Assembly: GCA_902556405.1 (NCBI GenBank)
Contig: CACDWF010000003.1
Location: 1 to 64,000 of the forward strand
Source of the DNA: an uncultured Alphaproteobacteria bacterium
GTDB taxonomy: Bacteria; Pseudomonadota; Alphaproteobacteria; Rhodobacterales; Rhodobacteraceae
DNA: 64,000 nt
Direction: 5' to 3'
The notes under the pieces were generated by a model that searched no databases, was not told the DNA's origin, and saw only the letters and a list, made by a program, of their open reading frames with translations. Shown in pieces: positions 15,070-57,229 of this stretch. How positions within the stretch are numbered: the stretch's first letter is position 1; each line of letters begins with the position of its first letter. The position numbers and the translations under genes were made by a program.

Positions 15070-15478
15070 CTTTAACTCCTGCTTTCATGACAATGTATTA
15101 ATAATTACAGTATAAAAGAAAGTAACCTTAGTTGGTAGAAAACTATGATTTTTTTTCTCTAATTTATGTGTTATGCTCATCTGTGGCATGTATTTTGCAG
15201 CCATACAGTCCCCTCATACTCCCAATATAAACCCAAACCTATGTATGAGGGGAACCTATTTTCAAATTCACTCTCAGCAATATTACAATCAAATAAAATT
15301 GAGAAATAACTTAGTTCTAAATTAAGTGGCATCCAAATATGTAATCTCGTGATTATATATCGATTTTAAGTACGGTGCACATTTAACAATTAATAGGCGA
15401 TTAAATTTAGTGCTATTTTTAATTTATTCTGAAATAATTTTTTTTTGAAAGCATTCTGTAAAATCACACTTAGAGGAA
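15070..15478. other. 409-base intergenic region without a supported gene
   Basis: The region separates the divergent degT operon and the AhpD-like gene and must hold both promoters. The only clear structure is the long inverted repeat at 15209-15253. A 50-codon ORF from ATG 15174 crosses that repeat but has no ribosome site and no recognisable features, so I do not call it. Confidence 0.6.
15209..15253. repeat. Perfect 11-bp inverted repeat with C-rich loop (possible small RNA or operator)
   Basis: TCCCCTCATAC at 15209-15219 is the exact reverse complement of GTATGAGGGGA at 15243-15253, separated by 23 bases. The stem is far more GC-rich than its surroundings. The plus-strand loop holds CCC and AACCC runs that could pair with Shine-Dalgarno sequences. 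No T-run follows on either strand, so it is not a plain terminator. It could be the core of a small RNA or a palindromic regulator site. Confidence 0.5.
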
Positions 15479-54587: not shown

Positions 54588-54603
54588 TGGCATGATTATT
54601 GAT
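54588..54603 (+). promoter_or_regulatory. Sigma-54-like promoter of the flagellin gene
   Basis: TGGCATGATTATTGAT matches the -24/-12 consensus TGGCAC-N5-TTGC at all bases except the last C of each element. It is 35 bases upstream of the start codon, so transcription would start around 54615. Alphaproteobacterial class IV flagellin genes are often RpoN-dependent. The downstream Cys-to-Ala-type change (TTGA for TTGC) lowers confidence. Confidence 0.4.
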
Positions 54604-54637: not shown

Positions 54638-57229
54638 ATGACCTCAATTTTTCCTGGTGGTAATGCTTTAAAAGCTGCAAACATTACAAAGAAGCAGCAA
54701 GATCAGTCTGCTGCACTAATGGAAAAAATTTCCAACGGAAAGAGGTTGATAACCGGTGCGGATGATGCTGGTAACATTAATAAAGTAAATAACTTAAAAG
54801 CAAAAGTGTTAAGCACTAAAGCTGCTGTGCGAAGCTTAACAGACATAATGTCTATGGCTCAATTGGCCGAGCAAGGCTATAATAATATCAATAAAGTGCT
54901 ATTAAGGGCAAACGAACTAGCACAACAATCCACTAATAAGATTTACAAAGATTCCAATCGAATTGCCCTAAATAATGAAGTTCAAAATATAATAGATGAA
55001 ATTGACAATATTGCTAATGGAATTGGCTTTAACAATACTTCGTTGATAAACAGTTCTATTAAGCAAATTAACGCTAACATGGGCACCGGCAGAACCGGTG
55101 AGATATCTTTAGATTTAACCAATATCGATACGAAACACCTAGGTCTGTATTCCCAAAGCTCATTGAATTTTAGTACCGATCTGAGCATAGATACTTTTGA
55201 TGGAACAGATAACGATAACTTTATATACAGAGACGTTTCAGCAAATTCTAGTAGATTGATAGATTTGGGAGACAGCCAAGTACCATCATATGGAAAAGCA
55301 TTTTTCTCTGGATCACACATAGATTTATCATTGAATGACTCTGAGTTGAACAACGAGACAACTAAACTTAAAACGGTTGCTTCACCATCAACATCTCTTG
55401 ATAGTGTCTCTGTTGTTGGCACCAAAGTATACGTTGGTAACGGCAGCTCAGCCGACCATATAGCTACGATAGATGGCACTTTAGATGGAACAAACGGAAA
55501 GAAACTGCGTATAAATATTGAGGAACCCTCTTTTACGAATGGTGATTTTGAGTCCGCAAATAATTTAGAGGGATGGAGTTTGAAATTGGAAAGAGCATTC
55601 CTCGATGGAAGTTTCACAATTGATCAAAAACCTACACCTATTGACCCAGTCTACCCAAATTTTGGTGATGGTGGGAGTAGTAATGTGGCAAAGGGGATTA
55701 CTGACAAAGATACACTAGTAGATGAAGGAACATTAAGTGGTGGGATCACTACTACACAAGTTAATTCTGGAAACAAAGCAGTACGACTTACGAGTACGAA
55801 TTTAGAGGACACAACTGGGCACTCAGTTATAAGAGGACCCTATCTATACAGTAATTCTTCAGTTACACTCGGCACGGCTAGTTCCGTATCTTTCGCATGG
55901 AGAGCAGAAGGTGGTCGAGATGCTTATGACGTCTATGCTTACCTCGTTGACGTAGATAATCCCAGTAATACAATTGAGCTACTTAATGAAACTCAAAACG
56001 CAAGCTCGGGAAATACAAATTGGGCTACTCGCACAGTAAATATAAATAAACCTGGTACTTATCAATTCGTTTTTGTTTCTGGTTCGTATGATTATAGTGG
56101 GGGCAATATATTAGGAGCTCAGTTATTTATTGATGATGTCAAGGTAACAAATGCCGCAAGAAAATTAAGTGGTTCAGTTATTGAAAACATCGGTTCGCTG
56201 CTATACGGCGAAGTAGATGTTAATTCGAAGGGCAATCTGTCCGCTGGATCATCAGCGTCCTTAACTGAGAAAATCATAAATACTGGACAAGATGTCAGCA
56301 TATTTGGAGCCCTTGGTAAAAAACAACTAAATGTGAAAAGTGGCGATATAGCTGAGATAATTGCAAATAAAATAAATGTTTTGGCGGATGATACTGGCGT
56401 GGAGGCAACATCTTCAACACAAGCAATGCTGTCTTTTGAAAATACTAGTAATACTAATTTAAGTGATACAGTTTCATTCAATCTGTACGGTATTGATGGA
56501 ACAATGAAAAATATTAGCAGTAAGATAAATTTTGGTTCAGGCAACCAAAATATGGACCTAGGTCCTCTAAGAACCGAGATCAATAATTTTTCAAGCCAAA
56601 CAGGCATAACGGCATATATATCTGATGACAAGCAGGCAATTACTTTAAAGACGAGGCAGGGCTTTGACATATTAATAGAAGATTTCAACTTAAAAAATGA
56701 TACAAATAGCGTCTTCATGTATCTAAATGAGATGAAATCATCGGGGCAAGTATCTCCCTGCTCATTGAAGCTCAGCCAGAGTTCAAACGGTATAAGCGTC
56801 AATGACTCAGGTAGAATTTTTGGTGAGGTTATTCTCAAGAGCCATAAGCACTTCTCTCTGAATTCTACTCAAGCTGATAGCATACTTTCACTTCGCGAAA
56901 AAAATCTCGACTTTGTTTCTTTGTCAACAATAGCGGCTAGGTCTTTCGAGACAGCAAAAAAATCTATTGACGTAATAAAGTTTTCGATGAAATCCATAGC
57001 TGCTGAACAGGGTAAAGTTGGCGGTCTTTCTAACCAACTTCAAAAAACAGTAAATAATCTTAGTAAAAATAGTTCCTTAGATAAGATTGCTATAGGAAAA
57101 TTGGAGGATGTAGATGTTCCCAAAACAGTTGTCTCCTTACAGAAAGCAAACTATATTCAAAGTATTGCGACTGCGATGGTTAACAGAGTTAAATCAACAA
57201 TGGAAGCTGTCCTTCAAATACTAGATTGA
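54638..57229 (+). CDS. Flagellin with large central insertion (863 aa)
   Basis: Filament subunit exported by the flagellar type III system. Residues 1-145 match flagellin D0/D1 (SAALMEKISNGKRLITGADDAG, MAQLAEQGYNNINKVLLRANELAQQS, DEIDNIANGIGFNN). The last ~110 residues form the C-terminal D1/D0 helices ending MEAVLQILD. Typical alphaproteobacterial flagellins have 270-400 residues; this has a middle of about 600. Within it, about 298-505 (FTNGDFESANNLEGW to AQLFIDDVKV) looks like a jelly-roll carbohydrate-binding-type domain. No flaF or flbT gene is in the window. A nonulosonate locus in the window could supply glycan. Confidence 0.93.
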   Translation: MTSIFPGGNALKAANITKKQQDQSAALMEKISNGKRLITGADDAGNINKVNNLKAKVLSTKAAVRSLTDIMSMAQLAEQGYNNINKVLLRANELAQQSTNKIYKDSNRIALNNEVQNIIDEIDNIANGIGFNNTSLINSSIKQINANMGTGRTGEISLDLTNIDTKHLGLYSQSSLNFSTDLSIDTFDGTDNDNFIYRDVSANSSRLIDLGDSQVPSYGKAFFSGSHIDLSLNDSELNNETTKLKTVASPSTSLDSVSVVGTKVYVGNGSSADHIATIDGTLDGTNGKKLRINIEEPSFTNGDFESANNLEGWSLKLERAFLDGSFTIDQKPTPIDPVYPNFGDGGSSNVAKGITDKDTLVDEGTLSGGITTTQVNSGNKAVRLTSTNLEDTTGHSVIRGPYLYSNSSVTLGTASSVSFAWRAEGGRDAYDVYAYLVDVDNPSNTIELLNETQNASSGNTNWATRTVNINKPGTYQFVFVSGSYDYSGGNILGAQLFIDDVKVTNAARKLSGSVIENIGSLLYGEVDVNSKGNLSAGSSASLTEKIINTGQDVSIFGALGKKQLNVKSGDIAEIIANKINVLADDTGVEATSSTQAMLSFENTSNTNLSDTVSFNLYGIDGTMKNISSKINFGSGNQNMDLGPLRTEINNFSSQTGITAYISDDKQAITLKTRQGFDILIEDFNLKNDTNSVFMYLNEMKSSGQVSPCSLKLSQSSNGISVNDSGRIFGEVILKSHKHFSLNSTQADSILSLREKNLDFVSLSTIAARSFETAKKSIDVIKFSMKSIAAEQGKVGGLSNQLQKTVNNLSKNSSLDKIAIGKLEDVDVPKTVVSLQKANYIQSIATAMVNRVKSTMEAVLQILD

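Follow-up and report, generated by a model that had tools for sequence, protein, structure and literature searches.

The window, a stretch of 64,000 nucleotides from an uncultured member of the Rhodobacteraceae, carries on its forward strand a gene for an 863-residue flagellin in which a predicted jelly-roll module lies between ordinary flagellin ends. We assigned the following features to this locus.

54588..54603, + strand: sigma-54-type (-24/-12) promoter-like site, TGGCATGATTATTGAT, 50 bases ahead of the ATG
54638..57229, + strand: flagellin gene with the module; open reading frame of 863 aa
54638..55162, + strand: N-terminal D0/D1 core, residues 1-175, from Flagellin_N; the limit at 175 is approximate
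55274..55528, + strand: 'pre' region, residues ~213-297, from profile matches to loci L049-L052
55529..56152, + strand: predicted jelly-roll module, residues 298-505, from AlphaFold2, Foldseek, VIA-align and the family alignment
56228..56842, + strand: Flagellin_IN-type outer domain, residues ~531-735, from a profile of 531-735 and Flagellin_IN at 611-670
56873..57226, + strand: C-terminal D1/D0 core, residues 746-863, from Flagellin_C; the limit at 746 is approximate

Pfam searches matched Flagellin_N to residues 10-138 (E 2e-16, 60.7 bits against a cut-off of 26.6) and Flagellin_C to residues 778-862 (E 7.5e-9, 36.2 bits against 23), confirming the initial annotation of the frame at 54638-57229 (+) as a flagellin with normal termini, and additionally placed Flagellin_IN at residues 611-670 (E 1.5e-7). 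The best NCBIfam rows for the whole protein were likewise flagellins, each under its own curated cut-off, and flagellins were the matches listed in a sequence search of the PDB. The frame is full length in 13 of the genus's 22 genomes, and the 12 copies besides that of the window are 63-95% identical to it, so it is not a chance ORF. We dropped the label 'giant' that had been attached to it, since the excerpted text of PMC6248924 applies this term to flagellins of >1000 aa and the window protein has 863.

The source genome (G000) comprises 2.19 Mb in 65 contigs and is 80% complete. The bacterium is probably marine, and probably open-ocean. We found in G000 a single intact flagellin together with a short flagellin remnant with two stops (C1:126562), as well as rpoN. 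The flagellar export protein FlhA is encoded on the same contig as the flagellin, 77 kb away (C3:134085), and the contig end holds flagellar-looking genes, named by eye except for FlhA, before breaking inside a long FlgK-like frame. In a relative, G004, the same gene order runs on to a gene of 428 aa that resembles FlgL by eye and to flagellins, one of 720 aa and the others short, and the module flagellin lies ~90 kb from this main flagellin cluster. Because the order in G004 continues into the cluster, the assembly of G000 probably misses its main flagellin cluster, with the window flagellin most likely being an additional one of this genome.

The neighbourhood of the gene is stable across the genus: the downstream gene is present in 14 of the 22 genomes and directly follows the flagellin in 13 of these 14, while the fourteenth (G012) retains a C-terminal remnant only (residues 781-863, in two pieces) between katG and the downstream gene. 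A search of 15 same-family genomes outside the genus found no match to the window flagellin at E 0.001; the flagellar genes of the genus might be of foreign origin. Two side observations concern other flagellin-like frames in the genus. A short orphan flagellin with in-frame stops occurs in three genomes (G000:C1:126562, G003:C1:201908 and G019:C5:24264), and intact frames of about 275-288 aa in other species of the genus look like its counterparts. A 2434-aa open frame (L128:1627-8928, on G010:C10), far longer than the 863-aa flagellin, has Flagellin_N near its start, a flagellin-like C-terminus by eye and many repeated segments between; our module, 'pre' and IN profiles did not match it.

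Upstream of the gene, the promoter-like site TGGCATGATTATTGAT fits a relaxed sigma-54-type consensus that we composed after the site had been seen, and that has 2 matches in the window against 0.15 expected; the sole other match lies at 15184-15199. Across the orthologues, TGGCAYR-N4-TTG starts 42-52 bases before the ATG in all 13 (10 of them aligned), and the pattern also occurs in the flagellar cluster, immediately upstream of the FlhA frame and ahead of a gene that by eye is of rod/hook type. A sigma-70 scan did no better than shuffled sequence (12 versus 9.6). The recurrence of such sites at orthologues and at flagellar genes makes sigma-54 control of the flagellin gene likely.

Predicted fold and relatives of the insert

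The insert spans 208 residues (298-505), and the motifs by which it had been recognized, NGDFE from residue 301 and LFIDDV ending at 501, both fall within it. Conserved positions of the insert include G400/P401, W421, D428, Y435 and D485. AlphaFold2 modeling of the insert with 10 orthologues predicted a beta jelly roll at moderate confidence (pLDDT 66.5, pTM 0.71); averaged in tens of residues, pLDDT was 71-89 between protein residues 397 and 506 and lower ahead of 397. A full-length AlphaFold2 model (pLDDT 46, pTM 0.32) was unusable for domain packing. Searching the PDB with Foldseek, we obtained 29 matches of 1808 at E up to 0.001, led by the CBM4 of CelK (E 6e-5, query TM 0.40) and including CBM30, CBM22, CBM6, CBM61 and CBM16 as well as MAM, a gingipain adhesin and other jelly rolls; query-normalized TM-scores were at most 0.40 in the best 50 of the 1808. 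VIA-align scored a Cry toxin domain and MAM domains at Z 10.1, a porphyran-binding CBM at Z 10.0 (rmsd 2.9 over 130 residues) and CBM4-2 at Z 9.4 (rmsd 3.1 over 147 residues), and we treat these Z values as ties; phage tailspikes, too, were among the folds matched at tied scores. Families missing from the Foldseek or VIA-align results are not counted as excluded. Against a viral structure library, 98 of 1786 matches reached E 0.001, with several tail and tail-host-specificity proteins among the named top rows.

Given the moderate confidence of the model and a query TM of at most 0.40, the prediction goes no further than a fold class, the jelly roll, and a role cannot be read from that class. 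No flagellin outer-domain model matched residues 298-505, and the results do not point to an ordinary D2/D3 domain unrelated to binding modules. At the sequence level, no Pfam or NCBIfam entry passed its cut-off over the insert (best E 6e-4 and 1.4e-4, respectively), and no PDB relative was found by sequence. Searches with Pfam CBM families, in which the HMMER filters drop most weak matches, returned none at E up to 10 for 10 orthologous inserts and none at E up to 0.1 for 20 wider module members. The members shown thus belong to a module family with no Pfam or NCBIfam entry over cut-off. A similarity to the choice-of-anchor J domain (NF038128) over residues 409-503 was sub-threshold (E 4e-4, 20.7 bits under a curated cut-off of 30) and was rejected as an identity, as were Kre9_KNH, LTD, PLAT, EMP24_GP25L and bile salt hydrolase, each a sub-threshold or chance match. 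The original proposal of a carbohydrate-binding-like module therefore survives as a predicted jelly roll with CBM4/30/22/16/6/61 structure matches, but not as membership in a CBM family by sequence, and even as a fold the CBM likeness is shared with MAM, phage tailspike and Cry-type domains.

Among 385 genomes of the class the insert profile had matches in 5, and among 398 of the phylum in 4; with a wider profile these counts were 6 and 5 (own genome included each time). In the order of G417, the module was present in 15 of 136 genomes, all 15 from a second alphaproteobacterial family (f109). We passed 18 of the 20 f109 loci found to Pfam, leaving out a weak match (L064) and a duplicate frame (L067, same as L053); six further matches of the order scan without a locus stayed outside these 18. 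Flagellar Pfam cut-offs were passed by 14 of the 18, some frames being cut by the locus end: 12 have Flagellin_N and/or Flagellin_C, with L053 adding Flagellin_IN, and the hook-type proteins L052 and L063 match FlgE_D2 and FlgE/F/G D1 (29.2 bits against a cut-off of 27), respectively. L044, L056, L061 and L062 fell under the flagellar cut-offs.

Some f109 module proteins also have adhesin-type parts. The Cadherin cut-off was passed at five loci (L048, L058, L059, L065 and L062), of which the first four encode flagellins that combine the jelly roll with cadherin repeats (in three cases within an open frame >1400 aa), so that filament parts and adhesin-type parts occur within a single protein. 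Tandem module copies occur in two flagellar axial proteins, two in L053 and up to three in L063 (the third at E 0.004). Outside flagella, the module is present in two DUF4347 proteins with cadherin-like matches under cut-off (L050, open frame of 1624 aa, and L051, 781 aa) and in long VCBS-type proteins (L045 and L046, by eye). Across 72,556 plasmid records, the window insert had one match, a C. sphaeroides protein annotated as VCBS domain-containing, and the L050 module had none. From their architecture, we infer that the DUF4347 and VCBS-type relatives are adhesins.

The module also occurs on 31 uncultivated viral contigs, with 31 loci drawn from 57 candidate stretches, some of the loci being near-duplicates. 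We ran PHROGs on 10 of these proteins. L115 is a clear tail fibre (E 6e-31 over its C-terminus, with the module at 521-726 of 1304), L107 has tail-spike similarity in its N-terminal part, L120 is a protease, L094 matches a family of unknown function, and six of the 10 match nothing. Some of the contigs may be misassigned as viral, for instance L097, which resembles a bacterial surface protein. Among 50,697 named phage records, neither the window insert nor two viral modules found a match. Two further arrangements were seen on the viral contigs: free-standing frames of 217-240 aa that hardly extend beyond the module (L104, L108, L110, L117 and L102), and subtilisin-like proteases with the module at or near the C-terminus (L111, L113, L119, L120 and L101), identified by PHROGs for L120 and by eye for the other four.

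The likeness to the DUF4347 proteins extends beyond the jelly roll. A composite profile of residues 176-545 matched L050 (E 7e-72) and L051 (E 2e-68) from residue ~213 to 501, and a profile of 176-297 alone matched L050 (E 4.5e-18), L051 (2.1e-16), the plasmid VCBS locus L049 (3.4e-8) and the hook-like L052 (7e-7), these E-values counting the ORFs of fetched loci only. The 'pre' region is thus common to two DUF4347 proteins, a hook-like protein and the plasmid VCBS locus, and together with the jelly roll it matches the DUF4347 proteins as a single piece. The limits first given to the insert hold for its motifs, but the shared stretch starts earlier, at ~213. L050 and L051 differ from the window flagellin in having DUF4347 ahead of the module and sub-threshold cadherin-like repeats behind it, without flagellin ends. 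Behind the module, a profile of 531-735 matched nine ~715-aa flagellins of the genus (L016-L018 and L027-L032, E 4e-32 to 5e-28); the composite profile found nothing in these nine paralogues, which are without the jelly roll. As the stretch 506-560 alone matched nothing beyond the orthologues, we do not read the jelly roll as an insertion within a cadherin-like domain.

Module phylogeny and probable exchange within the genus

We built a module tree of 44 rows, leaving out members <150 residues, viral matches starting after profile position 15, and duplicates. In it, a clade with support 100/99 joined the window-type modules to L052, L053, L050, L051 and two viral rows; the f109 flagellin modules fell elsewhere. 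A single clade of all flagellin modules, a natural group tested after the tree had been seen, was rejected by the AU test (p 0.0002), and the flagellin modules of the two families do not form one clade. For a narrower group of the window-type modules plus only L050, L051 and L052, the test spoke neither for nor against (p 0.30). For the flagellin cores, whose trees excluded one short flagellin of uncertain start, and the later tree FlgL as well, one clade of window-type and f109 sequences was not rejected (p 0.35); independent uptake of the module by flagellins is therefore claimed from the module test only.

Within the genus, we compared 13 rows, the 10 aligned orthologues and L011-L013. Two orthologues, L038 and L039, have modules at 68-69% identity to the window module and other regions at 67-92%. 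In nucleotide blocks against the window, L038 shows 57-76% inside residues 301-500 and 77-100% outside, and L039 56-72% inside and 73-93% outside. The flank tree places both with L035-L037 (99/100), and the module tree places both with L011-L013 (100/99). Each placement is rejected on the other alignment, the module grouping on the core (p 0.0006) and the flank grouping with L035-L037 on the module (p 4e-27). The core likewise rejects the group of type I (window-type) modules, as distinct from type II (L038-like) ones (p 0.004); groups for these tests were chosen once the trees were known. Finer blocks of L038 against L035 gave 90-95% in 521-620, 53-77% in 321-480 and 67-83% in 181-300. The 3' edge of the swap is clear, and its 5' edge is blurred because residues 181-300 vary too. 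The likeliest reading of this conflict between module and flanks is that recombination between species of the genus replaced the module.

Both parts of the protein are conserved. The module has dN/dS of 0.06-0.15 in seven of nine comparisons, dS being too large in the other two, and the core has a similar 0.08-0.16; the module is under purifying selection, as is the filament core.

Candidate roles of the module on the filament

We lean towards an accessory flagellin whose outer surface holds a recombining adhesion or recognition cassette, predicted to bind a ligand on surfaces. The intact flagellin end domains suggest that the subunit would join the filament through its D0/D1 ends, and each subunit would then place one jelly roll at the filament surface, where the modules could make numerous weak contacts with the ligand. 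This would likeliest be a polysaccharide of particles, mucilage, algae or neighboring cells, and it may vary by module type, given that species of the genus appear to exchange the module by recombination. Attachment is suggested by the company that the module keeps, as its relatives are flagellar, DUF4347, VCBS-type and viral proteins including a tail fibre, and glycan binding is plausible from this company and from the fold. Glycan contact need not stem from the insert, however, since E. coli FliC binds alginate in vitro, as cited in the review PMC8286568. More tentatively, and in our judgment with somewhat less than an even chance of being right, a single mobile recognition cassette may serve phage tail fibres, large surface adhesins, and the hook-type proteins and flagellins of probably open-ocean alphaproteobacteria; swapped on the filament, it would make the flagellum an attachment organelle of switchable specificity that draws on a pool overlapping that of viruses.

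Alternatively, the module could be a structural part without any ligand outside the filament, its bulk making the filament thicker or stiffer, or its dimerization linking subunits along protofilaments. Effects of outer domains on filament thickness, or on motility through viscous media, are described in the excerpted texts of PMC6248924 and PMC8931119, and a packing role would also call for conservation equal to that of the core, as we observed. Yet the same module occurs in a viral tail fibre, in DUF4347 proteins and in hook-type proteins, which have no common filament lattice, and it is swapped between species; we regard a purely structural role as unlikely. It is rather unlikely, too, that the protein is a junction or minor axial component, FlgL-like or a proximal flagellin, with few module copies in place of a filament flagellin. 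The protein has a divergent D0/D1 core, with a branch of 2.19 leading to the genus clade in the core tree, its gene in G004 is remote from the main flagellin cluster, and hook-type relatives bear the module, but the protein scores 37.4 bits with the FlgL (HAP3) model TIGR02550 against an equivalog cut-off of 127.2, and the relative has its separate FlgL-like gene in the main cluster. An exposed variable antigen, swapped under pressure from flagellotropic phages or grazers with binding incidental, would be expected to show interspecies module replacement and variation in the adjoining stretch 181-300, but is improbable given the low dN/dS of the module and its relatives in viral tail proteins, where such pressure acts differently.

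We compared the adhesion cassette that we favor with systems described in the literature, as far as the excerpted sources go. Flagellinolysin is a proteolytic flagellin with its functional domain within the variable region, and before it only structural and adhesive flagellin functions had been observed in nature (PMC5595980). As in the window protein, a functional domain is inserted there between normal flagellin ends and has partly spread by domain-only transfer; there it is a metallopeptidase, whereas the window protein has no HEXXH motif anywhere in its 863 residues and its insert is a predicted jelly roll. The giant flagellins of Oceanospirillales (PMC6248924) share a large outer region, and the host here is probably marine as well, but they exceed 1000 aa and have duplicated DE regions and an insert matched only among Oceanospirillales flagellins, in contrast to an 863-aa protein whose module has relatives beyond flagellins. 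P5 of Sphingomonas sp. A1 (PMC8286568) is likewise an alphaproteobacterial flagellin homologue, one that binds the polysaccharide alginate; it differs in being described as an outer-membrane receptor, its alginate binding is regarded there as perhaps general to flagellins, and the excerpted text mentions no jelly-roll insert. For the variable region of the Clostridium botulinum flagellin CBO0798, a jelly-roll fold was also proposed, by threading with a weak match (E 0.34; PMC2605760).

Among the matches listed in open-licence literature, seen in excerpt, none described a carbohydrate-binding insert in a natural flagellin. Already known were protease-bearing flagellins, a polysaccharide-binding flagellin homologue and a weakly supported clostridial jelly-roll proposal; what appears new here is a flagellin with a domesticated adhesion-type module that is conserved within an uncultured genus and exchanged between its species.

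In the excerpted published work, the protease family is the example of naturally occurring flagellins into which a functional domain has been inserted. The module swap makes our proposal testable, as it predicts different ligands for the two module types, which occur on closely related flagellin backbones. If the proposal is true, a module of adhesin or tail-fibre type in every subunit would join swimming to attachment in free-living bacteria, and the swimming filament may double as a sticky one.
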